A DNA stretch of 64,000 nt from Streptomyces griseus. Its GTDB lineage: Bacteria > Bdellovibrionota > Bdellovibrionia > Bdellovibrionales > Bdellovibrionaceae. Made by a program: the position numbers and the translations under genes. Position 1 is the first letter of the stretch. Each line of letters starts with the position of its first letter. Shown here one piece after another: positions 17,671-32,937 of this stretch. The notes below the pieces were generated by a model, which saw only the letters and a program-made list of their open reading frames with translations, was not told the origin of the DNA and did not search any database. The stretch covers positions 1 through 64,000 of the forward strand of contig CALQIT020000003.1 in the NCBI GenBank assembly GCA_943330705.2, given 5' to 3'.

Positions 17671-17860
17671 CTCATCACCTCCTTGTGACTTCAAAGACTT
17701 AGGGCTAGCACGTTCGGTAACATTTATTTATGGACAATTCGCAATCGGTCCGCACTTTTTTCTAAAGCAAATTATACATTTTGCCGATTCCTAAAAGAGG
17801 CGAATGGGCTATAGGCCAGTCACGCCGGAAAAGCATTTTGGGGATAGGAGCATCGACAGA

Positions 17861-19165
17861 ATGAGCACAAGTTCTAATAAAAATTTTGATGCAACAATGG
17901 ATGACGTACTCGCTCTGATTAGCGATTTCAAGGCCGGAAACTTTTCAAAACAATTAAGCAAAACGTCTGACCCTAAACTAAAAGATCTCGTTGACAGCCT
18001 CAATGACGTGACGAAAATTTTAGCTGCCCAAGCTGCCCAAGCTGCCCAAGCTGCCCAAGCTGCCCAAGCAGACACCGATACTTCATTTATCGTCGATTCA
18101 CTCGGGATTGGAATTTGGAAATGGGATCTCATCACAAACGGTCTTGAGTGGGATAAAAACATGTATAGGCTCTACGGTGCTGAAGAAAAACATTTCAATG
18201 GAGCCTACGATGCTTGGGAAAAGTCTTTATCTACAGAGACAAAGGCAAATGCCGTTGAAGAAATAAATGAGGCGGTAGCCGGTGGCAAACCATTTGATAC
18301 TGCGTTTCAAGTAATTCAACGAAACACGGGAAAAACACAGGAAATCCGAACCCGTGCATTTGTCATCAAAGATCAGAGTGGAAAACCGTTAAAAATGTGG
18401 GGCATTAATTTAGATAGAACTCGCGAGGCGGAGCTTGAAATTGAAGTCAAGAGGGAACAAGAAAAGGTTCTCAGAAGCTACAGACTAGCTTCTCTTGGTG
18501 AAATGTCAGCAGGTATCGCTCACGAAATCAATAATCCACTTGCCATTATCCAAGGCTCGGTCAACTTGCTGCCAAACTTTGTAAATAACCCAGAAAAACT
18601 TGGCTCCAAAATTGATGTAATCAAAAAATCTTGCATGCGTATTTCGAGAATCGTTCAAGGACTTAAAAAGTTCTCCCGGTCTGATGATAAAGTAGAGTTT
18701 TCTATGCGATCACTCAGCGCCATTACTGCAGAAGTCTTGATTCTAACGGATTCAAAATCTAGGCAGCATTCTACTCCGGTTACAGTAGATTTTCAATCGG
18801 AGGGTTCTATTTCATGTAGTGAGATTGAAATCGAGCAAGTTCTCATCAATTTGATAAACAACGCCATTGATGCGGCAAAAAACGAGACTGAAAAATGGGT
18901 CAAGGTTTCAGTGCTTGAGGATCATGGTTCTGTTGTCCTGCGGGTAATGGATTCGGGTAACGGCATATCTGAGAAAGTTCGAAGCAAACTCTTTGAACCT
19001 TTCTTTACCACGAAGAAAGTAGGAGAGGGGACGGGGCTAGGGCTATCTATTTCTAAAAGTATTTTGGATGAGCATAGGGCTACAATAACTGTAGTCGCTG
19101 AATCTCCTAATACTTGTTTTGAGATTAGGTTTCCCAGAGCGGAGGCGTTGAAAAATGCCGATTAA
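17861..19165 (+). CDS. PAS-domain sensor histidine kinase
   Basis: About 434 residues. An N-terminal helical segment resembling a HAMP-type linker (VLALISDFKAGNFSKQL) leads into five copies of AAQ, then a PAS domain (about 75-185, including IGIWKWDLITNGLEWDKNM and a PAC-like TRAFVIKDQSGKPLKMWG), HisKA with LGEMSAGIAHEINNPLAIIQ (His near 221) and HATPase with NLINNAIDAA, DSGNGIS, FEPFFTTK and GEGTGLGLSISKSI. No membrane segment is present. ATG 17804 is an alternative start with AGAGG only 3 nt upstream; 17861 has TAGGAG 10 nt upstream. The last 11 bp overlap the next gene, a single-domain receiver, its likely partner. Confidence 0.88.
   Translation: MSTSSNKNFDATMDDVLALISDFKAGNFSKQLSKTSDPKLKDLVDSLNDVTKILAAQAAQAAQAAQAAQADTDTSFIVDSLGIGIWKWDLITNGLEWDKNMYRLYGAEEKHFNGAYDAWEKSLSTETKANAVEEINEAVAGGKPFDTAFQVIQRNTGKTQEIRTRAFVIKDQSGKPLKMWGINLDRTREAELEIEVKREQEKVLRSYRLASLGEMSAGIAHEINNPLAIIQGSVNLLPNFVNNPEKLGSKIDVIKKSCMRISRIVQGLKKFSRSDDKVEFSMRSLSAITAEVLILTDSKSRQHSTPVTVDFQSEGSISCSEIEIEQVLINLINNAIDAAKNETEKWVKVSVLEDHGSVVLRVMDSGNGISEKVRSKLFEPFFTTKKVGEGTGLGLSISKSILDEHRATITVVAESPNTCFEIRFPRAEALKNAD
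18023..18067. repeat. five exact tandem copies of a 9-bp unit
   Basis: GCTGCCCAA is repeated five times without a change, in frame, and encodes (Ala-Ala-Gln)5 between the N-terminal helix and the PAS domain of the kinase. Exact repeats at the DNA level imply recent expansion and possible copy-number change; each copy adds three residues to what is probably a helical linker. Confidence 0.9.
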
Positions 19166-20111: not shown

Positions 20112-20139
20112 ACAGATTTAAATTGCAATTTAAATCTGT
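20112..20139. promoter_or_regulatory. perfect 28-bp palindrome before the oxygenase cluster
   Basis: ACAGATTTAAATTG (20112-20125) is followed without a gap by its exact reverse complement CAATTTAAATCTGT (20126-20139). It lies 40 bp upstream of the SnoaL-like gene and 19 bp upstream of the AurF-like gene, just before its AGGAG. A spacer-free palindrome of this length suits an operator for a dimeric regulator acting on both genes. As RNA it would make a tight hairpin next to the ribosome site; there is no proper T run for a terminator. Confidence 0.7.
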
Positions 20140-20158: not shown

Positions 20159-21373
20159 ATGGACTTGATAAAAGAAAGCTTTCAATCTTCTGCAAAAAAA
20201 ATTGATTCTACTTCAATGAAAAGGATTGAATTGAATCATACGCGAAACCGTATTCAAGATAACTCTCCAGAGCTTGATCGATTGGCTCTTAACTTTAATT
20301 ATAGCGACTGTCGTCATCAGTATTGGAATCCTGAACAGTTTTCATTTTTCTGGGGTACTCCTTTATGGGATCAATCCTCGCAGCACCAAAGAACAATTCT
20401 CAATCAACTCTATTGGGTAGCGTATTACTCACAAATTATATCTGCTGAAATAGCGACTATTTTCTTCAATCAGACCTCGGCAGCTGGTTTGTATGGTATC
20501 GAAGACTTTAGGAGTGTCTGCGATACTTTAGATTTAGAAAGTGCTCAAGAACGAGCGCATATACATGCCTTTAAAACAGTTAATGAGGCTTTCGAGGAAG
20601 AAGTCTTCGGAAAGAGAATCTTTAGCTATCCTATGCGCGGGCCTTATGTCGACACAATGATCAATGCAAATACGAGCCGCTCTAAAGAATTTTGGCGAGG
20701 GCTGCAACTCAAAGGTTTTGCGGTTATGTCTTCGAGCCGCGCATTTTTAGGCTGTCAATATTTTACCGTGCGGGGTTTACGTACTTTAAATGGAAAAATT
20801 GTTCAGCACAAACTGAGTCAATTTCATAGCAATAACCCACAAAAAGACAATTCTTCTATCCCTTCACTTATCAGCTATCATCACTTTTTGGATGAATCGT
20901 TTCACTTTAATAGTTCGTTACTGATCTCAGTTGAAGTTTTAAAAATGCTTGCACCACCGACGCCTTTTGAATCTTGGATTGCCAATCGAGGCATTGAAGG
21001 CTCGCAAAAAGATCATTTTAACTTTTCATCTGTTATGACAGGTTTATTTTGGTATGACCCTGCTCTTTTTCAAAAGTCGTATGACATCTTGAGGTCACCA
21101 GTATTTGCTATGAATCATCAAGAAGCTGTGACAATGCTCGAAGCTTGTTTTACGACCGAACATGAGGGTTTGCACCAAAGCGCGCTTAGCCGACAAGTCG
21201 CTATGGAGTCTTATTTAGACTATCTAAATAAAATACCTTATCTCAATAAAACAAACTTAGGGCTAAGTATAATGTCAAAAAACTCAATCCAAAAACACTT
21301 AGAGCAAAATCGTAAATGCTTTAGAGAATTTAAAAATAAAATTAATAAGTCACAACTATTGTATGCGAATTAA
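20159..21373 (+). CDS. AurF-like di-iron oxygenase
   Basis: A 404-residue helical protein with the metal-ligand pattern of the p-aminobenzoate N-oxygenase (AurF) family: Glu97 in IISAEIATIFF, Glu131 and His134 in QERAH, and His242, Glu246 and His249 in HHFLDESFH, which is the H-x3-E-x2-H arrangement of the AurF second-shell site. A fourth Glu ligand is not obvious. AurF-type enzymes use a non-haem di-iron centre and O2 to oxidise amines to nitro groups or to hydroxylate substrates. First gene of the plus-strand cluster; the ferredoxin gene overlaps it by 11 bp and is a likely electron donor. The substrate is unknown. Confidence 0.7.
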   Translation: MDLIKESFQSSAKKIDSTSMKRIELNHTRNRIQDNSPELDRLALNFNYSDCRHQYWNPEQFSFFWGTPLWDQSSQHQRTILNQLYWVAYYSQIISAEIATIFFNQTSAAGLYGIEDFRSVCDTLDLESAQERAHIHAFKTVNEAFEEEVFGKRIFSYPMRGPYVDTMINANTSRSKEFWRGLQLKGFAVMSSSRAFLGCQYFTVRGLRTLNGKIVQHKLSQFHSNNPQKDNSSIPSLISYHHFLDESFHFNSSLLISVEVLKMLAPPTPFESWIANRGIEGSQKDHFNFSSVMTGLFWYDPALFQKSYDILRSPVFAMNHQEAVTMLEACFTTEHEGLHQSALSRQVAMESYLDYLNKIPYLNKTNLGLSIMSKNSIQKHLEQNRKCFREFKNKINKSQLLYAN

Positions 21374-21647
21374 ATTTAATGAATCTAATTTTAAGCCAAT
21401 TGAAATTCCGGATAATGCCAATCTTTCCGAATATCTGGACAAATTAAATTCTCCTGTCTTGTTTGGTTGTCGTACCGGAATTTGTGGAACCTGCCTGATC
21501 GAAATCATCGAATCTGAAAACAGCACCCCACCTTCTGCAAATGAACTTGAGACGCTTGAACTTTTGGCGCCAAATAATTCAAAAGCTCGTCTTGCTTGCC
21601 AACTCGTTTGCTCAGGTGAAATTCAGCTTGAGTACTTGGGTTTATGA
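21363..21647 (+). CDS. plant-type 2Fe-2S ferredoxin
   Basis: A 94-residue ferredoxin with the cluster ligands Cys36, Cys41, Cys44 (GCRTGICGTC) and Cys79 (RLACQL), the spacing of plant-type and oxygenase-linked ferredoxins. Its length and the conserved ARLACQ motif indicate a stand-alone electron carrier. It overlaps the di-iron oxygenase gene upstream by 11 bp and the Rieske oxygenase gene downstream by 4 bp (ATGA), so it probably delivers electrons to one or both. No ferredoxin reductase is encoded in the cluster, so a reductase from elsewhere must serve. Confidence 0.93.
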   Translation: MRIKFNESNFKPIEIPDNANLSEYLDKLNSPVLFGCRTGICGTCLIEIIESENSTPPSANELETLELLAPNNSKARLACQLVCSGEIQLEYLGL

Positions 21648-22660
21648 GCCACAAAAACTATTGGTACATAGCCTGTGAAACAAAAGAACTTACTAAAAAT
21701 AGATTTATTAAATTTGAATTATTTAATGAGCCTTACTTGCTTTATAAAAAAGAAGACGGTTCGCTAGCATGTATTAAAGACCGCTGCTTGCATCGTGGGT
21801 TTCCTTTATCCCAAGGACTTAATAGTAAAGAATCATTTCAATGTGGTTATCATGGCTGGAAATATGATGAAAATGGAAATTTAATTAATATTCCCTCGCT
21901 CAGTTCTCAAGCTAAATTACCTCGTGTTTGTCTTCGTAGTTTACCTGTCATTACACATCAAGATTATGTTTTTGTTAGCACTTCAGAAAAAGCGGAGATA
22001 CCCAAACCATTTTCAATACCGCAATTACGCACAAAGAATTGGGGCCATATACGTCTCAAAAATTTATTTGAAAGCCCTGTAACCCAATGTCTAGAAAATT
22101 TCTTAGATGTACCGCACACCGCATGGGTGCATCCTGGAATTTTTAGAAAGAATAAGTCCGAAGCATTGCGCTTAAAAAGTAAAAAAACCGGGTCGTTTGT
22201 TACAACATCATATCATGGGGAAAAAAATAATCTTGGTTTTTTTTCGAAATTTCTAAACCCTACTAATCAGGAGTTAATACATACTGATACATTTTTTTCA
22301 CCCAACATTTCGTGTGTCTTCTACTCAGCAGGCCCGCATAGAAAATTCTATATAACTTCACAAGCTATACCGACAGGGGATGGGCGAACTTGGGTTTTTA
22401 CGGATTTGACTTACAATTATGGCATTTGGAATACAGTTTTAAAACCAATTATACGCTGGCATGCTCAAAAAATTATTAAACAAGATCAAGAATTGCTTAG
22501 GGTACTTTATGAAAACACAAAATTCGCGAACGAAACGAAACTTAATACTGAGGCAGACCTGCCGCTTTTATGGATTGCAGGGCTAAGAAGCTATCTTGAA
22601 AAAGGTATCGACTTAAAACAAACCAAAAATGTTAAAGGAGAAGTTGAAATACGTGTTTAA
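21644..22660 (+). CDS. Rieske non-haem iron oxygenase (first copy)
   Basis: A 338-residue alpha-subunit-type oxygenase. The Rieske 2Fe-2S site is Cys48-x-His50 and Cys67-x2-His70 (CLH and CGYHGW). The mononuclear iron site is visible as ENFLDVPHTAWVH with Asp155, His158 and His163; the Asp bridges the two metal sites between subunits. Length and spacing fit the single-component type of Rieske oxygenases acting on choline, sterols, porphyrins or natural products rather than dioxygenases with a beta subunit. It follows the ferredoxin gene with a 4-bp overlap. It is not a close duplicate of the second Rieske gene in the cluster. Confidence 0.9.
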   Translation: MSHKNYWYIACETKELTKNRFIKFELFNEPYLLYKKEDGSLACIKDRCLHRGFPLSQGLNSKESFQCGYHGWKYDENGNLINIPSLSSQAKLPRVCLRSLPVITHQDYVFVSTSEKAEIPKPFSIPQLRTKNWGHIRLKNLFESPVTQCLENFLDVPHTAWVHPGIFRKNKSEALRLKSKKTGSFVTTSYHGEKNNLGFFSKFLNPTNQELIHTDTFFSPNISCVFYSAGPHRKFYITSQAIPTGDGRTWVFTDLTYNYGIWNTVLKPIIRWHAQKIIKQDQELLRVLYENTKFANETKLNTEADLPLLWIAGLRSYLEKGIDLKQTKNVKGEVEIRV

Positions 22661-23357
22661 TAATCTTCCAATTTTTTTTAGTTTAAATAAAAGAACATAT
22701 TCTGATTGGTTTATTGATTTCGTTGGACTTCTTCTACAAGGCCTCGGAATTGCGCTAATACAGACTTGGTTTATTTTAAAAGTATTTCCGGCGCTGCTGC
22801 CTAACTATAAAAGCTTTATCTCCATTCACCCTATCGTTCAGTTTGTGATCAGTTTTATATTAATTGATTATATTTATTATTGGAATCATCGAATGCTTCA
22901 TAGCAGGCTTTTTTGGAGACTTCATTTTTTACATCATTCTGCAAAAAACGTAGATTGGCTTACAACTTCTAGAAATCATCTTTTTACACCTTTAGCCATA
23001 TGCTACTTGTGGCTTCACTCTTTCTTTGCATTTATTTTAACAGATTATAGATTCTATCTAGCTGGAGTTATATGCACTTACGCATTAGATATCTGGCGAC
23101 ATTCTAAATTTTCGCCGAAGCATGCACAAATATTTCAGAAAATCGAAGGCGTTTTTATAACACCACGCTTGCACCACGAGCATCATTCTAAAACGAATTG
23201 TGAAAGTTTTTTCGGTGCTAACTTTTCCTGGTGGGATACGCTGCATAGTACAAAAAAAGATATTTCTTATCCAGTCTTGGCAACTCACAACAACTTGGTG
23301 CGCCTAAAACATCTTGTAATTTTTCCAAAATATAAGAAAGCAGAATCTGAAATATGA
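22629..23357 (+). CDS. membrane fatty-acid hydroxylase / sterol desaturase family protein
   Basis: A 242-residue integral membrane protein with the eight-histidine di-iron signature: His87-x3-His91 (HRMLH), His99-x2-HisHis (HFLHH), His117 and the closing LHHEHH (182-186). Hydrophobic segments lie at about 28-55, 68-84 and 120-150. Such enzymes hydroxylate or desaturate lipids, for example the beta-carotene, sphinganine C4 or fatty-acid positions, using O2 and a ferredoxin or cytochrome. The start may also be TTG 22644 or GTG 22653; ATG 22629 overlaps the Rieske gene by 32 bp. It strongly suggests that the pathway acts on a lipid. Confidence 0.88.
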   Translation: MLKEKLKYVFNNLPIFFSLNKRTYSDWFIDFVGLLLQGLGIALIQTWFILKVFPALLPNYKSFISIHPIVQFVISFILIDYIYYWNHRMLHSRLFWRLHFLHHSAKNVDWLTTSRNHLFTPLAICYLWLHSFFAFILTDYRFYLAGVICTYALDIWRHSKFSPKHAQIFQKIEGVFITPRLHHEHHSKTNCESFFGANFSWWDTLHSTKKDISYPVLATHNNLVRLKHLVIFPKYKKAESEI

Positions 23358-24013
23358 CTGTCGCCGGAAAACTAATTTCACTTTTCTCTTTGCTATTTTT
23401 CTCTTTTGGGGTGGTGACGTCTTCACTTATTCTAAGTCGATACTCTTTTCTAAATTTTGTTTTATTCTTTTTAGGTTATGTTTATTTAATTCCGCCCTTG
23501 TTATTTCGTATACATAAAAAGATAGCTGGTTCTAGTCCAAGAACGAGCGATATGTCGGCACCAAAATACTCGCCTTGGTGGGGCGGATATCAAATTCAAG
23601 CCATTTTTATAGCCGTACCAAGTTTAGAAGGGTTTCTAAGACTGATTCCTGGTTGCTATAGCGTTTGGTTAACACTTTGGGGAAGCCAGATTGGAAAAAG
23701 TGTTTCTTGGACTCCGACAGTATTAGTTTCAGATCGCGATCAACTAATTATAGGTGACAATGTTATCATAGGGCATCAGGTACAGCTCATATGTCACTTT
23801 ATACGGCCCAAAAAAAAATCTCTGTTTCTTACCTTGGACACACTCAAGATAGGGTCTAATTGCTTTATTGGAGCTGGATCTAGAATCGCACCAGGTGCTG
23901 AAATAGCATCAGGCGATTTTTTACCAATACTAAGCGATGTTTACCCTCCTCGTTTAAAAGCCAAACGCGCTAAACAAGATATTTTACAGACGGAGCAAAA
24001 CATTGTCAGTTAA
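23354..24013 (+). CDS. left-handed beta-helix (hexapeptide) acyltransferase-like membrane protein
   Basis: A protein of 219 residues. Two N-terminal hydrophobic segments (about 5-27 and 30-50) anchor it in the membrane; the C-terminal half has hexapeptide-type repeats (LIIGDNVIIGHQVQL, LKIGSNCFIGAGSRIAPGAEI) found in LbH acyltransferases of the DapH/LacA type. Acyl-CoA or acyl-ACP would be the usual donor. The start shares an ATGA overlap with the hydroxylase gene. The number of repeats is small, so the helix may be short or trimeric contacts may complete it. The acceptor is unknown. Confidence 0.7.
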   Translation: MTVAGKLISLFSLLFFSFGVVTSSLILSRYSFLNFVLFFLGYVYLIPPLLFRIHKKIAGSSPRTSDMSAPKYSPWWGGYQIQAIFIAVPSLEGFLRLIPGCYSVWLTLWGSQIGKSVSWTPTVLVSDRDQLIIGDNVIIGHQVQLICHFIRPKKKSLFLTLDTLKIGSNCFIGAGSRIAPGAEIASGDFLPILSDVYPPRLKAKRAKQDILQTEQNIVS

Positions 24014-25430
24014 GCGACGTCAAAAACGAGTTCAAATAAAAATTCTTAAACTTTTGGAGAATTCCAAATGGGGCCAAAGATTTCAAATCAATTCGAAAAA
24101 TATTGAAACTTGGGATAATTTACCTTTGTCGAAGGCTTCTGATTTTGGTCAGCTTTACCCAGGAAAAGTAGAACTTTCATTTTCAACAGAAAAAGTCTTA
24201 CATTGGACTCCAACGACAGGAACCACTGGTATTTCAAAGTGGATTCCATTGACCCCAACGTTAAGAAAAAGTTTTACCAGAATGTTTTTAGTTTGGGCCA
24301 AAGATATTTTGAGACACTATCCATCTATTATCTTTGGAAAATGTTTCGCCTCCGTTTCGCCCTCTAGCAAAGACGATGACTTAGATTATATTCAATCTTG
24401 GACTGCTCGAATTATTTCTCTGTTCGTCATTTCAAGCCATGAAATCAAGAAAAGTATAAGCGCCGAAGAATTCCATATTTGCCTTAGCAAAGCGCTCCTT
24501 AAAAAAGACTTACGGGCCATTTCAATTTGGAGTCCTTCGTATCTTTTAAATTTTCTTAATTTTTTAAAAAAGAGTGATAATTTAGCTGAAGACGACTTCA
24601 AAAAACTTTGGCCAAATTTAAAAATAATTTCTTGTTGGGGCGATGGAGCCTCTGCAGCTGGGCTTCAAAAACTTAAGCAGCTTTTCCCAAAAACACTTGT
24701 GCAAGCAAAGGGCTTACTGGCAACAGAAGGCCCGATGACAATTCCTCTTATCGACCTAAAGGGTGGGGTACCATTGCTAGACGATGTTTATTTTGAATTT
24801 ATAGATTCAAATGGAAGATTAAAAAAACTTCATGAACTCGAAATAGATGCAATATACGAAATTTTGCCATCCTGGCTAGGTGGTTTTCCGCGCTATCAAA
24901 TAAGTGATCTTGTCAAAGTTGTTGGTTTTAATAAAGCGATTCCACTACTTCAATTCGAAAGCAGAAAAGGGCTTACCTCGGATCTTGTTGGAGAAAAAAT
25001 AACAGAAGAATTCGCAAAAAAAACTATGACGCAATTATTTTCAGATTATGTAGACAACGATGCACAGTCATTTCTAATGCCTTTGCAATCCGAAATAAAT
25101 GGTAAAGTTAGATATTCAATTGTGACTTCGGCCTCAAAAGTAATCACTGAACTTGAAGCCTTGCTATTAGAAAATCCCCATTATGCGCTAGCCAGGAAGC
25201 AAGGACAGATTTCTTTTCCGAAAGTGTTCCATGTCGAAAATCCGCAAGCTGCACTTTTAGAGGCCAGCGTAAAAGCAGGATTTGGAAGAGGTGACGTGAA
25301 GCCCTGTTTTTTAGTTACTAATAGGCAGATTATTCAACAGCTGATGATTTATTTTGAAAAAGAAATTCCAGGGCTGATGCCATTTCATCAACAGATGGCG
25401 CAACCAATAAGTCCTGAATTGAATCAATGA
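24003..25430 (+). CDS. GH3-family acyl-acid amido synthetase-like protein
   Basis: A 475-residue member of the GH3 branch of adenylating enzymes. HWTPTTGTTGISKWIPLTPT (from residue 67) is the ATP-binding P-loop-like motif, and later GGFPRYQISDLVKVVGF matches the GH3 Y-R-x-G/S-D-x-V block. Plant GH3 enzymes adenylate hormone acids and join them to amino acids; bacterial members are less known. The start is TTG at 24003 with GGAG 7 nt upstream, overlapping the acyltransferase gene by 11 bp. Its last 101 bp overlap the 3' end of the convergent di-iron gene. It likely forms an amide bond in the cluster product. Confidence 0.85.
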   Translation: MSVKRRQKRVQIKILKLLENSKWGQRFQINSKNIETWDNLPLSKASDFGQLYPGKVELSFSTEKVLHWTPTTGTTGISKWIPLTPTLRKSFTRMFLVWAKDILRHYPSIIFGKCFASVSPSSKDDDLDYIQSWTARIISLFVISSHEIKKSISAEEFHICLSKALLKKDLRAISIWSPSYLLNFLNFLKKSDNLAEDDFKKLWPNLKIISCWGDGASAAGLQKLKQLFPKTLVQAKGLLATEGPMTIPLIDLKGGVPLLDDVYFEFIDSNGRLKKLHELEIDAIYEILPSWLGGFPRYQISDLVKVVGFNKAIPLLQFESRKGLTSDLVGEKITEEFAKKTMTQLFSDYVDNDAQSFLMPLQSEINGKVRYSIVTSASKVITELEALLLENPHYALARKQGQISFPKVFHVENPQAALLEASVKAGFGRGDVKPCFLVTNRQIIQQLMIYFEKEIPGLMPFHQQMAQPISPELNQ

Positions 25431-26271
25431 AAATTTTGGGGACAGGCCCTTGTCCGATAAGTCGAGCAATGATCTCTAATTGAGAGACTACAACTTCTTT
25501 GGAGTTTAACTGTATAAGGATTCCTTTAATTTCTTCATATGATAAAGAGGGCACCTCAGAACTTAAAGCAGTAAAAACTCTAACTGGTCCAATACGAATC
25601 ATACGCAATAGATTTTTCAAATAACCCGAAATTTCTCGTTGAAGTGGCAAGTGCAAAAATTCGTTCTCATTATGCCTTCCAATCATTACACCGGCACCAT
25701 GATGACTAGCTTCATCATGAATAATTTCTTCAAATATCTTCTTTAAACATTCATTTGTCGTTGCAGCGGCTAGAGCCTTGTAATGCCAAAGACCCCAGCC
25801 TTCCAGAATAACTTGTAAAATATAAATTGCACACCGCGGCGATGCTTCTGAAGAAATTTTTGCCATCTCGCTTAAAAAACCATTCAATTCCCCAGCCTGT
25901 TCTGAATCTATATAAAATGGCTTCAAGGCTAGAAAATGCTTAGCTTCTTCTGCAGCAAATATAGAAAATAAAGCTCGTTCCTCAGCAAATTTTGCTTCAA
26001 CCGCAAATTTAGACATCATAAGCATAGCGCCCTTTTCGATAAAATAGGCTTCTTGGATGAGTGAATGGCTCAGCAAGGAAACGATTTTACTCTTTTTTTC
26101 GGCACCCAATTTTTCAAAAACTAAAACAAGATTTAAACCCCAAAAATCAGCATTCCAATGGACTTCATAAAGGGAAACATTGTTGTCGCGAGCCTCATGT
26201 TTTGCGCGCAAAATACGATTTAATGGATGCTCAAGGGTAAGTCGCGGCAAAGAAAGTACATTTGAATTCAT
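25330..26271 (-). CDS. ferritin-like di-iron protein
   Basis: A 313-residue helical protein with the classical carboxylate-bridged di-iron pattern: a Glu in LIQEAYFIEKG, E-x2-H in AAEEAKHF, a Glu in VILEGWGLWHY and E-x2-H in IIHDEASHH. This is the E...ExxH...E...ExxH ligand set of ferritin-like oxygenases, desaturases and ribonucleotide reductase R2. It has no membrane segment. Last gene of the minus-strand half of the cluster, joined by an ATGA-type 4-bp overlap to the GNAT-like gene, and its 3' end overlaps the GH3 gene by 101 bp in the opposite direction. Distinct from the AurF-like protein in length and motif spacing. Confidence 0.78.
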   Translation of the reverse strand: MNSNVLSLPRLTLEHPLNRILRAKHEARDNNVSLYEVHWNADFWGLNLVLVFEKLGAEKKSKIVSLLSHSLIQEAYFIEKGAMLMMSKFAVEAKFAEERALFSIFAAEEAKHFLALKPFYIDSEQAGELNGFLSEMAKISSEASPRCAIYILQVILEGWGLWHYKALAAATTNECLKKIFEEIIHDEASHHGAGVMIGRHNENEFLHLPLQREISGYLKNLLRMIRIGPVRVFTALSSEVPSLSYEEIKGILIQLNSKEVVVSQLEIIARLIGQGPVPKIFIDSIQDLLVAPSVDEMASALEFLFQNKSSAVE

Positions 26272-27053
26272 ATTGATTGATCACCGGAAGCGGTCTTATT
26301 TTTAATAGTTGCATAGGAATGGAAACGTTGTAAATTTTTATAAATTGGCTGAGTCGCTTTCTTAAAACAATACAAAATTGCATTCAGTATCGTAACTTCG
26401 CCGACGCAAGCAAGCTCAGTTCCATTTTCCCAATCAGGATTTAATTTTTCAAAAAAGGCTATCCTTGGATATTTTCGGTCATGCGCAGTTATCGGCGCAA
26501 CTCCAGACTTCAGTCGTGTCGACAGGTTGTCGAATCGAACGTGGCCCGTTTTAGAGTTGTAGCATGTTCCGAACAATTCCGAGTAAAATATGTCCATTCT
26601 TGTTTGATGTAATACCGAGGTTTCTTTTTCGTATCTAGGATAATGATTTAAGAAATTATTGGCGAGTAAAAGATACGTCTTGTATCCTTTTGAAATCAAA
26701 AACCAGTATACAGGCTGATTGATATTTTTTATTTTCTGAATAAAAACAAATTTAGTGAACATAATTTGAAGTGACGACTGTCCCCAGTACTTCTTTTCAA
26801 CAATAGTGTCTCCGCTAAACACGCCTATCCATCTTTTGCCGTCAGTCATAAAATAGCGGATGACTATTGTAGAAAATCCTCTGATCACTTTCTGTTGATC
26901 TTTAACTACTATAACCTTATCTTTTATCGACAAATCAGCCTCAAATTTTTTTAAAGCCACTCCATCATAGTGATCTTGCATCAATTCAAATAATCGTAGT
27001 TTTTCAATTTGGTTTAGTTTATTAACACCAATTATTTCTGATTTTAATGCCAT
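26268..27053 (-). CDS. probable GNAT-like N-acyltransferase
   Basis: A protein of 261 residues of uncertain family. The order of a first helix (LRLFELMQDHYDG), an exposed strand pair with KVIVVKDQQKVIRGFSTIVIR, WIGVFSGDTIVEKKYWGQSSLQIMFTKFVF and VYWFLISKGYKTYLLLANNF is like the GNAT N-acyltransferase fold, where the W-G-x-x-x-L/I helix binds acyl-CoA. ATG at 27053 with GGAGA 4 nt upstream is the better start; the frame is open to 27107 but that would overlap the Rieske gene more deeply. Lies between the second Rieske and the di-iron gene, overlapping both. Could add an acyl chain to an amine in the pathway; this is inference. Confidence 0.6.
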   Translation of the reverse strand: MALKSEIIGVNKLNQIEKLRLFELMQDHYDGVALKKFEADLSIKDKVIVVKDQQKVIRGFSTIVIRYFMTDGKRWIGVFSGDTIVEKKYWGQSSLQIMFTKFVFIQKIKNINQPVYWFLISKGYKTYLLLANNFLNHYPRYEKETSVLHQTRMDIFYSELFGTCYNSKTGHVRFDNLSTRLKSGVAPITAHDRKYPRIAFFEKLNPDWENGTELACVGEVTILNAILYCFKKATQPIYKNLQRFHSYATIKNKTASGDQSI

Positions 27054-28093
27054 AAATTCTCCGACTGAAAATAATTTTTTTCTTTTGGGAGAATTTTCAA
27101 ACCCCAAGGCAAGGTTGATTGTCCTTCAACGTGTTGAATGAATTTTACGATGGCCTCGTCTGCCTTTATTGGATGATTAAATTGAAATTTAATCGATTTG
27201 AATATTTTAGTGTCGCCACGGGCAAAATAATTTCCAACTACTTGGGTTACTTTTAACAAAAGAAAGTTTATAATTTTCCCTGTTAAACCAGATCTTTTTT
27301 TAGTAATTAGTATCGTTTGCCCTTCTGAAAATCCCGCCGCATTCTGACGCAGTGAAAACATGATATAAAAATGTAAGAAATCAGGCCCCAAAGTCACGCA
27401 CCCCGTATTTCCAAACCAATAGGATAAATCATAAGTAAGTCGCTTTTTGTAAAACAAACCAATGAGCCGCATGGTGAAAGATGATCTGTCGGCAACGGTT
27501 GTATTGTCGAAAACAATTTGCTGCCGAGATTTCTTTTCAGCTTTCATATAAAGTGGAATAGAAAAATGATGAACCGATTGAAAATGCTGTGCATCTATTG
27601 CGTTAATCATCATTACACCAGGTGCACATTCTTTTAGAAAAGGCTTGCCTAAAGTTGCAGAAACTTCCTTGCCTTCCAGCTCTGGTACTTCTGGGATACT
27701 GCACTTAGGCTCGTCGTCTCCGATCCATATCCAAATTAAATTATAACGTTCGTCAACATTCCAAGTTTGAATCGGTTTTATTCCGCGAGTTTCATTCTGG
27801 CAGGGAATATCAACGCAACGTCCATCACCATTAATTTGCCATCGATGAAAAAAACAACGTATTGAATCACCTTCAACTTTTCCTTCTTTTAAATGCGCAC
27901 CCATATGCGGGCAGTAAGCATCTAAAGCTCGAACCTTTCCGTTTTCACTTCTATATAAAACAAGATCACGCCCAAAAAGAGAAACTCCTTTTGTCTTTTT
28001 CTTGCTTAGATCTTTCGATGCAAAAACCCAATACCAACCTTCAGTGACAACACTTGTGTTGTTAAAGACTTCTGTCTTGTTGCCTAACGACAT
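27044..28093 (-). CDS. Rieske non-haem iron oxygenase (second copy)
   Basis: A 349-residue oxygenase with Rieske ligands Cys61-x-His63 and Cys80-x2-His83 (CPHMGAH and CFFHRW) and the catalytic iron site in MINAIDAQHFQSVH: Asn164, Asp167, His170 and His175. It resembles the KshA-type branch (steroid 9-alpha-hydroxylase oxygenase and relatives) in the opening WYWVFASKDL and the CPHMGAHL motif, but substrate cannot be read from the sequence. GGAG lies 7 nt before the ATG. It overlaps the amidohydrolase gene by 32 bp and the GNAT-like gene by 10 bp. Electron supply could come from the cluster ferredoxin. Confidence 0.9.
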   Translation of the reverse strand: MSLGNKTEVFNNTSVVTEGWYWVFASKDLSKKKTKGVSLFGRDLVLYRSENGKVRALDAYCPHMGAHLKEGKVEGDSIRCFFHRWQINGDGRCVDIPCQNETRGIKPIQTWNVDERYNLIWIWIGDDEPKCSIPEVPELEGKEVSATLGKPFLKECAPGVMMINAIDAQHFQSVHHFSIPLYMKAEKKSRQQIVFDNTTVADRSSFTMRLIGLFYKKRLTYDLSYWFGNTGCVTLGPDFLHFYIMFSLRQNAAGFSEGQTILITKKRSGLTGKIINFLLLKVTQVVGNYFARGDTKIFKSIKFQFNHPIKADEAIVKFIQHVEGQSTLPWGLKILPKEKNYFQSENLWH

Positions 28094-30245
28094 AATCTTT
28101 CTCCTGAAAATTAAATTGATTCATCGCGCACTTCGTAGCCATCATCAAAAACTTGCTCCATTCAATTCGTGAGCTGTTAGCAATCTTAAAATAGCGGCCT
28201 CTTAATAACTCGAAAAACATTCGATAAAGGCTAAACGTGGCGCGAAGACTAAACATCGCATCTCTTGAAACAATGGGACTAGGTTCAAAAAATTTATGCC
28301 CAATCAGTCCAATAGATTGCGAAAGAGGCCAAAACAGCAAAGGTATCCAGGAATGTGCCATAAAGGCCCATAAAGGCAGACCACTCATTAGAATAACGCC
28401 AGCAAAATGTAAGAAAACATTTCGCGGGTCTTGATGTTTTAAAACAAACACAGACCAGTAATTAACAAATGGATGCAACGTTCTAGCGTCATCTATTGCA
28501 AAAGATTGAGTTGGGCGTTCATAAGGATTCTTACGTAGTGGTTTTCCGCTTCCTGAATTGAGGACAAGCCAATTTAACTCACCTCTATTCACGACAGTTT
28601 TTCCAGAAATCCAAACATGCGTTAATGATTCCTCAAGCCCACGGTTAACAAATCGCGCATATCCATTCAAAAATTTATCATTAATTTCTACCATTTTTGA
28701 TTGAAGTTTTTTTAAAGCCTCTGGATCTATCAAACAGATATCAGCGGGCTTACCTAGCTCAATAGTCCCAGCCGGTAACCTCCACCAAGTAGCTAAATCC
28801 CCTGTAAATCTGGCGACTAACTCTTCTATTGATATACGTCCAATAAATTTCTGATTTTCGGTGATCAGCCAATCACGAATAGTTCTTAAGCCTACATCGT
28901 AATAAGCAAAATTTCTAACATGAGCACCCGCATCACTTAAGCCAGGTTGCACGTCAGGATCACTTATTAATTTTTGTCTAGGAATCTCTCGGCGATTGGC
29001 AAATTCAATCCACCACTGAAAGTCAGTGTCCTGCTCCGCCAGAACATCAAGAAAAAAATCCAAGCTGTCTTTTTCAAATTCTTCGGCAATCGAGTCGAAA
29101 TATCTATCGCTCCAATCAGGTTTTGAAGATTTAATGACTTTTATTTCACTAAAGCTACGAGAACAGGTTTTTATTTTTTGGTTAAACCAATCATTACGAA
29201 ATGCATTTCTAAATTCAGGATCAAGAAGTAAAGCTTTTCTTTCATCTCTTGTCTTGAGGCTATTTAGCCGCGCACCCGCTGGAAATTCATCAAAAAGGGG
29301 CGTCACCGGTCCATCTGAGTAAATCCCAAAAGGCGCAGCTAAGGTCTGTAATTTTAAATTAGCACCGCCCCAGCGATTGATAAATCTTAATAGCGGAGAC
29401 CAAATTCGCCAAGACCAAGGCATTGTATCTACGTCAAGCGCACCAATAACTGTCATTCGCAGCGGCTTCTTTCCAACTCCGAGAGCCAACGATAAAAGTT
29501 GAAATATAGAGGGCCGATGTTGTGGATTCGGCGTCATCTGCAAGATAGCATCATACTTTCTACAAACATCTGCTAAGTATTGTATTTCTGAATGAGACGC
29601 ACGATGCGATGGTAAATTTTCACCGGCAAAAGTGCCGCTCATTAGATGCCAAGGAATACGATCAACGGATAGACCATAAAATCCACTCCTAAGCGCGTCA
29701 TCTAGAATATGACCCATTTTTTGGATTTCAGCTTGGCTTGCCTCTTTGTTCAGAGCATTTTCAAGGCCCATAACAAATACGCGCAAAGCACTATGACCAA
29801 GCAGCAATGCCACGTGAGGACCTAATTTAAGCGAATTTAAAAATTTAATGTAGTCTTGAGGCGTAGTTCTTTCATTCGCGTCTTTAAGCCAATTCCTTAT
29901 TAAACTGGGTGAAATTGATTCAACACGATGAAATATATCAGCTAAGTCGCTAGGCTTTCCTAAACTAAGCGACAAGCTACAGTTACCCATAACAACGCTA
30001 GTAACTCCGTGGCGAACTGACTCTGAAAGTGCAGGTGACATTTCAACTTCAAGATCATAATGAGTATGAATATCTATCAAACCTGGAATTAACCATTTTT
30101 CGTTAGCATCAATGATAGCTTTCGAGTCGGGCTTCTCATTACCTATGTATTCTATTATCCCACCTCTCCAACCAACGTTGGTTTTGCGAGCGGGCACGCC
30201 GGTACCATCAATTAAAATAGAATTAATTACCAAAATATCTAGCAT
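28062..30245 (-). CDS. D-aminoacylase-type amidohydrolase fused to an Mpo1-like membrane domain
   Basis: A protein of 727 residues with two parts. Residues 1-560 are an amidohydrolase of the N-acyl-D-amino-acid deacylase type: GLIDIHTHYDLE (His60, His62), GVTSVVMGNCSLSLS with the metal-binding Cys, LLGHSALR, and SDAGAHVRNF with the catalytic Asp. Residues 600-700 contain FVNYWSVFVLKHQDPRNVFLHF, two hydrophobic segments and QSIGLIGHKFFEPSP, the pattern of the DUF962/Mpo1 family; yeast Mpo1 is an Fe(II) dioxygenase that alpha-oxidises 2-hydroxy fatty acids from sphingolipids. The fusion suggests amide hydrolysis coupled to acyl-chain processing at the membrane. The linked roles are inferred. 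Confidence 0.8.
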   Translation of the reverse strand: MLDILVINSILIDGTGVPARKTNVGWRGGIIEYIGNEKPDSKAIIDANEKWLIPGLIDIHTHYDLEVEMSPALSESVRHGVTSVVMGNCSLSLSLGKPSDLADIFHRVESISPSLIRNWLKDANERTTPQDYIKFLNSLKLGPHVALLLGHSALRVFVMGLENALNKEASQAEIQKMGHILDDALRSGFYGLSVDRIPWHLMSGTFAGENLPSHRASHSEIQYLADVCRKYDAILQMTPNPQHRPSIFQLLSLALGVGKKPLRMTVIGALDVDTMPWSWRIWSPLLRFINRWGGANLKLQTLAAPFGIYSDGPVTPLFDEFPAGARLNSLKTRDERKALLLDPEFRNAFRNDWFNQKIKTCSRSFSEIKVIKSSKPDWSDRYFDSIAEEFEKDSLDFFLDVLAEQDTDFQWWIEFANRREIPRQKLISDPDVQPGLSDAGAHVRNFAYYDVGLRTIRDWLITENQKFIGRISIEELVARFTGDLATWWRLPAGTIELGKPADICLIDPEALKKLQSKMVEINDKFLNGYARFVNRGLEESLTHVWISGKTVVNRGELNWLVLNSGSGKPLRKNPYERPTQSFAIDDARTLHPFVNYWSVFVLKHQDPRNVFLHFAGVILMSGLPLWAFMAHSWIPLLFWPLSQSIGLIGHKFFEPSPIVSRDAMFSLRATFSLYRMFFELLRGRYFKIANSSRIEWSKFLMMATKCAMNQFNFQEKDYVVRQQDRSL

Positions 30246-30261
30246 TCAAAAATTATAGGCA

Positions 30262-30891
30262 TCATCTTTGTTTACTTGCAAGGATCAAGGAAGTCACAAG
30301 TAACGCGCCCAACGCTAGAAGCCAGCCAAACACCACATCGATAGCGTAGTGCTGTTTTGTCAATAAAGTCGATGTCGCGATTCCTAAACTCCAAATAAGC
30401 CAAATAGATCCCATCAGCTTTCGCTTTTCACTCCAAATTGAAAAAGCACAAATTGTGCTAAGAGCGACATGAAGCGACGGGGAACAGTTTGCGGCGGGGT
30501 CCAATCGATAGAGCCACTCATATAAAATCAACCAAGGACTTCCAATAAGCAAATTCACGGTTTGATCTCTTTGTATTGTCGTCGGCCATATCGCAAAAAT
30601 TACGAATGCAGCGAGAGAGGCAAGAGCAATGGACGTATACCAAAAAAGCCATTTTTTTTTATCTTGGATCATCCAGGCTGTTACGGCCACAATTGCAAAA
30701 TGAGACACATAAATAAGTATAGCAGGTGCCCAGAAACCAATTTTGTCATCCATTGTGCTTGCGGTTAAAACAACCGCTTTATTCGAAGCGCCAAGTATTG
30801 GGTAAAAAAGGCAAAACAACAAATACCAGGCCAAAAAAAGGCGAACTCTAAGCGAATTAAATATAAAATTTATTTTAACTTTAGCCATCAT
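30262..30891 (-). CDS. PAP2-superfamily membrane phosphatase/phosphotransferase
   Basis: A 209-residue membrane protein with about six helices and the two catalytic motifs of the PAP2 family: CSPSLHVALS (C2) and TKQHYAIDVVFG (C3, His and Asp). A clear C1 K-x6-RP motif is missing, as in the AUR1/inositol-phosphorylceramide-synthase-like branch. Members remove phosphate from lipid phosphates or transfer phospho-head groups to ceramide-like acceptors. First gene of the minus-strand half of the cluster; its promoter must lie in the 62 bp shared with the broken methyltransferase gene. It supports a lipid product. Confidence 0.85.
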   Translation of the reverse strand: MMAKVKINFIFNSLRVRLFLAWYLLFCLFYPILGASNKAVVLTASTMDDKIGFWAPAILIYVSHFAIVAVTAWMIQDKKKWLFWYTSIALASLAAFVIFAIWPTTIQRDQTVNLLIGSPWLILYEWLYRLDPAANCSPSLHVALSTICAFSIWSEKRKLMGSIWLIWSLGIATSTLLTKQHYAIDVVFGWLLALGALLVTSLILASKQR

Positions 30892-30953: not shown

Positions 30954-31497
30954 ATGTATAGTAGCAGCAAACTCAAAACTGAACTAAATAAATTTACACC
31001 AACTCTATACGACAAGCACGGGTTAAAAAATATTTTGGGAGAGCAAAAACGCTACTTGAACATAGGCTACTGGAAGCAAAATCCTGCTACACTTGATCAG
31101 GCTTGTGATGATCTAATCAAGCTGGTCTCAAACGTTTCAAACCTTTCAAAGACAGAGGCAATTTTAGATGTTGAATGTGGTTTCGGAGAGCAAATTTTTT
31201 GCTTTGCAAGATGCTCAGGCAGAAATTAAAAATAGAAAATTAGATGGCCGTATAGACTTTGTACAAGGTCATGCCGAGATGCTGCCATTTTTAGATTTAC
31301 AATTTTATAACGTAATTTGTATTGAAGCTGCTTTTCATTTTCTAAGTAGAGAAAGTTTTTTATTCTGAGAGCATTTGGAAAGATTACTATCCACTAACGC
31401 GGATAAGATTAATTATCGAATTACGCAGTTCTTTATTGAACCTGGTTTAATAGGCAGAAATGACGACCGTCCTGAATTTTTAGTTCGTTATCTTTAA
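30954..31497 (+). pseudogene. broken SAM-dependent methyltransferase
   Basis: The first 92 codons (30954-31229) read like the N-terminus of a small-molecule methyltransferase, with RYLNIGYWKQNPATLDQAC and the SAM motif ILDVECGFGEQ, where the usual Gly of DVGCGxG is Glu. A frameshift near 31190 then moves the coding to another frame (EIKNRKLDGRIDFVQGHAEMLPF, VICIEAAFHF, motif II and III regions), which meets an in-frame TGA at 31366 and continues open to 31497. The C-terminal half of the enzyme is missing. Decay next to an intact biosynthetic cluster suggests a lost tailoring step or debris of the island edge. Confidence 0.75.
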
Positions 31498-32926
31498 AGA
31501 AATTGCACGTATCGCTAGGGACGCTACAATCTGGAAATATTTTTTCAAACTTTGCATTCAAGACGAATGTGAAGTTTTCATTCGCGGCTTGCCGATTAAT
31601 CCCAATGACCCAACAAGCTTACTACAATTAGACATCTTGGCGGCCTTTGCGGAGTATGAGAGTAATCAAATTTCCAAAAGAACGCGTGAAAGTAATTTCT
31701 CTGCCATGGTTACATCCGGAAAGTTTAATTCAACCCATCAAGTTCTTGGCCTGGACCAATTAATCGTAAATGGTGAACCCAAAGTCGGATTCTAAGTTGC
31801 AAATTCCAAAGAGCTTGAATCCGTCGGATGGATCCTGCGCACTTTTTTAAAGTATGGCTCGCAACAAAAAACTTTAGAAGAGTGCGAAAAGCGTGGAATT
31901 AAAAATAAGAATGGCAAAGCGTTCAAAAAGAATTCCCTTACAACTTTGCTGACCAATAAAAAATACATTGGAAAATGGATTGTGAATCCAGAAAATAAAG
32001 AAAAGGCCCAGCAAAAATTATTACCTTATGATAAATACACAGAAATCGAACTACCCCATGGATGTGTCATTGATATTGATTTATCGAATAGCGTTCAACA
32101 TACGCTTGCCCAAATTGCTGGAAAGAATACAAAAAACACAAGGTTAACTCGAATTTATTCGTTGTCGGGCATCTTGCGGTTAACAGATGGTTCACCGTTT
32201 CACGGTCGAAGTGCTTATAGTTCGAAAGGCGTTCGGAATAATTACTATTACAACAAAAACTTAGGCCAGCCATTCCGTGCCGAAGACCTAGAAACGGAAG
32301 CAAAAACAGTGACTGTTGGAATCATCAGAGAAAATGATCAAGTTCAAGATGCCGTTAGACGACGCTGTAAAGACATCAAAAGCCTAACGGATCTGATTCA
32401 AGGTCAAGCCGACAAGCTAAACATTGAGATTGCATCATTAGAAAAAGATAAAACTTCGTTAAGTACACAGTTGGATTTTTTGCTTTCAGACGGCAATGCC
32501 GAGGATGCGAAACTTTTTAAGGACGAATATAAAAACAGAATGGAAGACATCAATCAGCAAATCGGCCAACTAAGAGCCTCTTTGGAGTTGATGACGGTTA
32601 AAGGCAAAAATTTGAATGACGATACGTTTGATTGGAAGTCTGTGAAAAGGCGTGCAGAAGAGATTTTGGATTTGATTCAAGAGCATGACCCAGTAGCCCT
32701 TAACAGGGCGTACAGTCAGCTTTTCGAAACAATTGTGCTGGGTGAGTTAGATAAAGATGGCAAAAGGCCGTTGAAGTTTGTGTTGAGAGATAATGGCGAT
32801 GGCCCAAAAACAAAAAAGCCAGGTGTTAACCTGGCTGCAGAATCATGCGCTACACATAAAATGGCTCAGAAGGAGGGACTCGAACCCCCGACCCAGCGGT
32901 TAACAGCCGCTTGCTCTACCAACTGA
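31484..32926 (+). pseudogene. broken large serine recombinase
   Basis: The product lacks the N-terminal 60 or so residues with the catalytic Ser. What remains begins KEIARIARDATIWKYFFKLC, continues through VFIRGLPINPNDPTSLLQLDILAAFAEYESNQISKRTRE (end of the resolvase domain), and is cut by an in-frame TAA at 31793. The same frame goes on with ESVGWILRTFLKYG and LLTNKKYIGKW of the recombinase domain, a basic DNA-binding part and a long coiled coil (about 32340-32700). The 3' end reads through the terminator and into the antisense of tRNA-Asn, stopping at 32926. It is therefore an inactive phage- or island-type integrase. Confidence 0.85.
32804..32836 (-). terminator. intrinsic terminator of tRNA-Asn
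   Basis: On the minus strand the stem AGCCAGG / CCTGGCT (32836-32830 with 32823-32817) closes a 6-nt loop and is followed by TTTTTTG and more T residues. It lies 26 nt beyond the CCA end of the tRNA. The recombinase pseudogene reads through it on the other strand. Confidence 0.85.
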
Positions 32927-32937
32927 GCTACTTCTGA
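32862..32937 (-). tRNA. tRNA-Asn (GTT)
   Basis: A 76-nt tRNA with encoded CCA. The acceptor stem is TCAGAAG / CTTCTGA with discriminator G; the D arm contains AGCTCAGTTGGTAGAGC; the anticodon stem AGCGG / CCGCT encloses CTGTTAA with anticodon GTT; the T arm carries GGTTCGAGTCC. All stems pair. The 3' half overlaps the end of the recombinase pseudogene on the opposite strand, so the gene probably served as an integration site. Confidence 0.97.

Follow-up and report, generated by a model that had tools for sequence, protein, structure and literature searches.

Which kind of biosynthetic system is encoded by a compact cluster of oxygen-dependent enzymes in a Bdellovibrio-like bacterium, and what might it make? 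The cluster lies in the first 64,000 nucleotides of contig CALQIT020000003.1 (here, the window), from a host genome (G000) that is 94% complete. A preliminary description had placed eleven genes at positions 20159 to 30891, knew of no described pathway that has this gene set, and suggested a sphingolipid-like or acylated amine product. We find that the cluster is a Bdellovibrionota member of a known orphan class and not a new kind of system. On balance, its sequence features favor a multiply oxidized, possibly chlorinated, N-acyl amine or amino-acid lipid as its product.

The class was described in cyanobacteria in 2021 and is still a product orphan, so the claim of an undescribed gene set does not hold. 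Eusebio et al. (PMC8406957) reported “Rieske-containing” CylC clusters as the commonest CylC cluster type in cyanobacteria, tied to no known product. They define the class by one CylC, two to four Rieske proteins, a sterol desaturase family protein in most cases, and no carrier protein, and found neither substrate-activating nor carrier proteins in such clusters. A few deltaproteobacterial homologs are already part of their similarity network, in which the group that contains non-cyanobacterial homologs has Rieske and fatty acid hydroxylase neighbors (PMC8406957). The window encodes a single CylC homolog, which falls in the Rieske-associated clade, two Rieske-domain proteins, and a sterol desaturase family protein (PF04116); neither Pfam nor NCBIfam reveals an acyl carrier protein (ACP), a fatty acyl-AMP ligase (FAAL), or a polyketide synthase (PKS) among the cluster proteins. 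The preliminary view of an oxygen-dependent system lacking PKS and nonribosomal peptide synthetase (NRPS) genes is supported. The cluster shares all of these features, and the orphan product, with those of 2021, but differs from them in its occurrence in Bdellovibrionota, its two convergent operons, its two Rieske genes, its fused amidohydrolase-Mpo1 gene, and its PAP2 gene.

The CylC-like protein carries both motifs by which dimetal-carboxylate halogenases are recognized (PMC12101540, PMC12871659), ExxQExxH (E127-H134) and HxxDExxH (H242-H249), and also keeps E97; the motifs and the di-iron ligand set are shared with the CylC and NocO halogenases (PMC12101540). A plasmid search returned four PKS/P450-type CylC homologs that are 25 to 29% identical to it (27 to 29% in the comparison with the CylC/NocO type). 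Two of these have acyl-AMP ligase, ACP, and PKS/NRPS genes as neighbors, and a third has sulfotransferase and P450 genes, both reported contexts of CylC homologs (PMC8406957), and the record of the fourth is unannotated around the gene. Eight of the nine active-site residues mutated in NocO are retained. The ninth, NocO E252, corresponds by spacing and alignment to Gln216, an equivalence drawn solely through the four homologs and the published motif spacing. All 85 Rieske-cluster homologs have Gln at this position, in contrast to the Glu of all four PKS/P450-type members. An E252A variant of NocO loses chlorination but not iron (PMC12101540). We call the window protein halogenase-like, not a halogenase, because the second-sphere Glu is replaced by Gln216. 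That this replacement extends across all Rieske-cluster homologs is, for the sequences aligned here, a new observation; PMC12101540 notes Gln at the site in a small subset of homologs, in passages that give no gene context. Unlike the CylC/NocO systems, the window cluster has no ACP or FAAL partner, and the PKS/P450-type homologs are about 54 residues longer than the Rieske-clade protein, a difference that would be consistent with a carrier-free substrate. The earlier label, AurF-like, gives way to CylC-like. The p-aminobenzoate N-oxygenase AurF belongs, by the literature, to the same ferritin-like di-iron family, but the window protein scores 13 bits against a Pfam AurF cut-off of 29.6 and has Gln in place of AurF D135 in the QExxH motif. 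A PDB profile search with the protein gave no match.

The gene set recurs well beyond the host. A scan of GTDB genomes yielded 80 loci with a CylC-like gene, and unsupervised clustering of the neighboring open reading frames (ORFs) of about 85 loci recovered mainly the gene set of the window. The loci come from Cyanobacteria, Bdellovibrionota, Acidobacteriota, Myxococcota, Gammaproteobacteria, and Planctomycetota; L069 belongs to a culturable cyanobacterium, Calothrix sp. PCC 7103. Across 85 loci, we counted CylC-like genes in 84, Rieske genes in 83 (211 genes), ferredoxin in 72, ferritin-like in 71, GNAT in 61, hydroxylase in 60, hexapeptide in 56, GH3 in 55, Mpo1-like in 29, and amidohydrolase in 19; because a CylC-like gene was the criterion for picking the loci, and closely related Nostocales supply many of them, these counts express co-occurrence with that gene and not independent sampling. 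The same families recur in several phyla, and the grouping is therefore more than chance, in agreement with the earlier expectation that the genes co-occur as a set. In four Bdellovibrionales genomes, the CylC-like gene has the same surrounding genes, and some of these relatives add an extra Rieske gene, a short-chain dehydrogenase/reductase (SDR) gene, and a resistance-nodulation-division (RND)-like exporter gene, the last predicted from sequence without a Pfam match.

The cluster also encodes a GH3 protein. In a profile search it matches the structures of JAR1 and of plant GH3 enzymes (E=3e-23), its N-terminal and central domains are present, and its motif residues are invariant apart from the Ser of the TSG motif. 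The GH3 proteins of the clusters form their own clade, apart from other Bdellovibrionales GH3 proteins (Shimodaira-Hasegawa-like approximate likelihood ratio test, 99). All 24 cluster genomes checked encode GH3 (23 by Pfam, the 24th in its cluster by direct search), compared with 1 of 14 control genomes, and GH3 lies inside the flanks of 38 of the 51 fully flanked loci. A precedent is OlsH, a planctomycete GH3 enzyme of Singulisphaera acidiphila that uses ATP to join a free fatty acid to ornithine, giving N-acyl-ornithine without a carrier protein (PMC12493201). The window protein shares with OlsH the bacterial GH3 family and, by prediction, carrier-free acid activation; the likeness is one of family, and ornithine is the amine of OlsH. 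An OlsI-type alpha/beta-hydrolase O-acyltransferase is absent from the window cluster proteins, which sets the cluster apart from the OlsH/OlsI operon. GH3 would be the carrier-free acid-activating step that the 2021 study did not find; the main text of that study does not mention GH3 (PMC8406957). Together, the OlsH precedent and the GH3 association support, by inference, the N-acyl amide guess. Two further GH3 arrangements have no CylC-like gene. One, in other Bdellovibrionales (L028 4175-11547, L030 6537-16418), holds Rieske and GNAT genes and one for a large FG-GAP/UnbV protein that includes an NQR2/RnfD-like region. The other (L027 7276-13826, L032 8322-16046) holds genes for Rieske, GNAT, and Mpo1-like proteins, a fatty acid desaturase, and a cytochrome P450.

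Features of the cluster, with the basis of each assignment
Feature	Position	Strand	Basis or context
DUF4440/SnoaL-like (NTF2-fold family) protein, N-terminal signal-like segment	19581..20072	-	PF14534 E=3.8e-7
Perfect palindrome, 28 bp, ACAGATTTAAATTGCAATTTAAATCTGT	20112..20139		Sits in 86-bp divergent promoter region
CylC-family dimetal-carboxylate halogenase-like di-iron enzyme, Rieske-cluster clade	20159..21373	+	Motifs, homology
Plant-type 2Fe-2S ferredoxin	21363..21647	+	PF00111 E=1.2e-9
Rieske oxygenase A (VanA_C type)	21644..22660	+	PF00355, PF19112
Membrane fatty acid hydroxylase/sterol desaturase family	22629..23357	+	PF04116 E=1e-20
Membrane-anchored hexapeptide (LbH) acyltransferase-like protein	23354..24013	+	PF00132 E=4e-8
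GH3-type acyl-adenylating amide synthetase	24003..25430	+	PF03321, PF23571 above cut-off
Ferritin-like di-iron oxidase/oxygenase	25330..26271	-	Conserved ligands, structure model pLDDT (predicted local distance difference test) 90
GNAT-fold acyltransferase, C-terminal helix, 279 aa	26268..27107	-	Fold search
Rieske oxygenase B (KshA/SxtT-like)	27044..28093	-	PF00355 E=2e-25
D-aminoacylase-like amidohydrolase fused to Mpo1-like domain	28062..30245	-	PF07969, PF06127
PAP2 family membrane phosphatase	30262..30891	-	PF14378 E=3e-10

Among the cluster proteins, Pfam backs the two Rieske proteins, the fatty acid hydroxylase, the hexapeptide transferase, GH3, the Amidohydro_3-Mpo1-like fusion, PAP2, and the ferredoxin. 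Both Rieske proteins have intact Rieske and mononuclear-iron motifs, and the CxH-CxxH and DxxHxxxxH motifs are present in all 72 homologs of Rieske A. Rieske B is nearest in the PDB to KshA (2.5e-28) and SxtDIOX/SxtT, and is 48 to 53% identical to the first Rieske protein of the relatives' clusters. The His boxes of the hydroxylase are conserved in 64 of 64 homologs; its nearest NCBIfam model is OlsE (NF052566, E=4e-10), at a score far under the cut-off of that model. In the ferritin-like protein, E74, E109xxH112, E157, and E187xxH190 are invariant across 34 aligned homologs, and the nearest solved folds to its model, all weak matches, are R2lox, aldehyde-deformylating oxygenase, and R2. R2lox and aldehyde-deformylating oxygenase bind long chains. 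The 279-residue protein had no match in Pfam or PDB profile searches and owes its family to the fold search, in which its model (pLDDT 90) matched AAC(2')-Ia (Foldseek E=7e-7) and many other GNAT proteins. The Amidohydro_3 part of the fusion protein resembles D-aminoacylase (E=4e-17), and the three Mpo1 histidines are kept in all 34 homologs; the same fusion occurs in cyanobacterial locus L053, and elsewhere the two parts are adjacent separate genes. A PAP2 homolog lies next to the Mpo1-like gene in acidobacterial locus L036 only, and PAP2 is therefore a peripheral member.

Family membership, catalytic motifs, fold, the conserved gene set, and its cross-phylum distribution are observed directly; from these we infer a substrate, an order of steps, an amine partner, halogenation, and a product. 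The pathway would start from a fatty acid, or another hydrophobic acid of this sort, in free form and without attachment to an ACP. The iron enzymes of the cluster would oxidize it at several unactivated carbons, with the CylC-like enzyme performing chlorination or hydroxylation and the ferritin-like enzyme, the Rieske oxygenases (two here, three in most relatives), and the membrane hydroxylase acting as further oxidants. The dedicated 2Fe-2S ferredoxin may supply the Rieske oxygenases, and 2-hydroxylated chains may be shortened through alpha-oxidation by the Mpo1-like domain. GH3 would then adenylate the carboxylate and, like OlsH with ornithine, form an amide with an amine or amino acid. Further acyl groups would come from the GNAT and hexapeptide proteins, and the amidohydrolase could trim or recycle an N-acyl group.

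Several observations weigh against this pathway or parts of it. NocO depends on its second-sphere Glu, for which all Rieske-cluster homologs have Gln, and this leaves us unsure of halogenation. In its TSG motif, the window GH3 carries Thr at the site of the relatives' Ser, and 13 of the 51 fully flanked loci have no GH3 within 10 kb; where the genomes of these loci were searched, GH3 is encoded elsewhere. The SDR and third Rieske genes of the Bdellovibrionaceae relatives are absent from the window, with no third Rieske protein elsewhere in the host genome, and the product may differ from theirs. The open-licence papers found describe no characterized product or enzyme of the class.

The strongest alternative concerns the chemistry of one enzyme and is otherwise compatible with a lipid amide: the product would be oxidized but not halogenated, the CylC-like enzyme having turned into a C-H oxygenase or desaturase with the Glu-to-Gln change marking the loss of halogenation. 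We regard this as a serious contender, with a probability somewhat short of even. The split between Gln (85/85) and Glu (4/4), the chlorination defect of NocO E252A despite retained iron (PMC12101540), and the majority of oxygenases among the neighbors all speak for it. However, the other eight active-site residues are kept, among them the Gln of ExxQExxH that is specific to halogenases (PMC12871659), and AurF itself has Glu at the position in question, so that Gln does not restore the oxygenase state. It is improbable that the locus is instead a catabolic island, in which GH3, the amidohydrolase, and the oxygenases would break down an acyl amide or aromatic compound. The amidohydrolase does resemble D-aminoacylase and Rieske enzymes are frequent in catabolism, but biosynthesis is the role of the known CylC homologs and of the acyltransferases, the relatives' clusters have a predicted RND-like exporter gene next to them, and the gene set has no ring-cleavage genes.

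Two other lipid classes are less probable still. A sphingolipid-like product, the part of the earlier product guess that fails, as opposed to the N-acyl amide part that GH3 and the fatty acid hydroxylase make the best guess, draws on PAP2, Mpo1-like, and hydroxylase families known in sphingolipid metabolism and on a weak match of PAP2 to phosphoinositol-dihydroceramide synthase. It appears very unlikely: neither the host genome (best E=4e-4) nor G084 or G153 has a serine palmitoyltransferase-like gene, an absence that carries less weight in draft than in closed genomes, and PAP2 belongs to the cluster only in the window and L036. Tailoring of hopanoids or sterols by KshA/SdmA-like Rieske enzymes and sterol desaturase-like enzymes would fit the matches of the Rieske proteins to KshA and sterol monooxygenase models and the squalene-hopene-type cyclase encoded in the host genome. 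We give it equally little credence, since 14 of 20 cluster genomes, several of them maybe incomplete assemblies, have no squalene-hopene or sterol cyclase, and an acid-activating GH3 would be unexpected.

All eleven ORFs were verified where they had been placed, six on the + strand (the left operon) and five on the - strand (the right operon), and the operons converge. Neighbors overlap by 11, 4, 32, 4, and 11 bp in the left operon and by 4, 64, and 32 bp in the right, where the value of 64 bp hinges on a TTG start; the only gap inside the operons is one of 16 bp ahead of the PAP2 gene. The operons meet in a 101-bp tail-to-tail overlap of the GH3 and ferritin-like genes (25330-25430). The same convergent overlap occurs in five Bdellovibrionota relatives (L022-L025 and L115, 59 to 131 bp) and, at 9 bp, in L070, a contig of uncertain taxonomy. 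GC content is 34 to 41% per gene, compared with 43% for the remainder of the window.

The extent first proposed holds for its genes but not for its left boundary, which moves out to 19581: the DUF4440/SnoaL-like gene, divergent from the CylC-like gene, is a twelfth member, giving a cluster of about 12 genes. Its product is 45% identical to those of genes divergent from the CylC-like gene in Acidobacteria (L036, L037), and in the cyanobacterial loci L040, L053, L066, L073, and L100 a homolog is found close to the amidohydrolase gene. The palindrome between the two genes ends 19 bp ahead of the CylC-like start and is the longest perfect one in the window (next arm, 8), a length unmatched in 30 simulations. 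It is a candidate operator; it has no second copy in the host genome and none in relatives, and is not a conserved element. At the right end, a methyltransferase remnant (30954-31368) is spread over two overlapping frames and weakly matches CMAS (cyclopropane synthase family); it may once have been part of the cluster. An apparent serine-recombinase remnant (31589-32926), judged from sequence without Pfam support, runs into tRNA-Asn (32862-32937). We considered this tRNA as an integration site and rejected it, as no direct repeat of its end was found at the left boundary. To the left, a sensor kinase gene (17804-19165) contains an Ala-Ala-Gln repeat tract, and an antisense ORF (17809-18162) reads as Trp-Ala-Ala repeats.

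The CylC-like gene is sparse in the host order, occurring in only 5 of 141 genomes. In the CylC-like tree, the window protein groups with two Acidobacteriota sequences (support 99/89) and not with its own family, on branches flagged as long, and the PAP2-Mpo1-amidohydrolase block of L036 agrees with this acidobacterial affinity. In the GH3 tree, which is without acidobacterial GH3, the window protein groups with Bdellovibrionota (support 86), and the window amidohydrolase is slightly nearer to cyanobacterial sequences. The long branches, together with the GH3 tree and the mixed affinities of the amidohydrolase, make an acidobacterial origin of the whole cluster by horizontal transfer no more than suggestive. 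In L053 (13688-15001) and five other loci, the DUF4440-like gene and the amidohydrolase gene are separated by a gene for a family 2 glycosyltransferase, a hint that the product of the cyanobacterial cluster may be glycosylated.

The locus thus belongs to an orphan class found in many cyanobacteria and several unrelated phyla, for which the GH3 link is, as far as the literature found here goes, the first candidate acid-activating and amide-forming step. The conserved Glu-to-Gln change reduces the choice between halogenase and oxygenase to a one-residue question, and a carrier-free CylC-type enzyme, if true, would be useful for C-H functionalization. More speculatively, the Rieske-clade CylC enzymes, with their invariant Gln and no carrier, might constitute a separate class of carrier-free, radical C-H functionalizing enzymes. 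Their pathway would then be an old one, spread across phyla, that yields halogenated or polyoxidized aminoacyl lipids and that cyanobacteria have in common with relatives of predatory bacteria.

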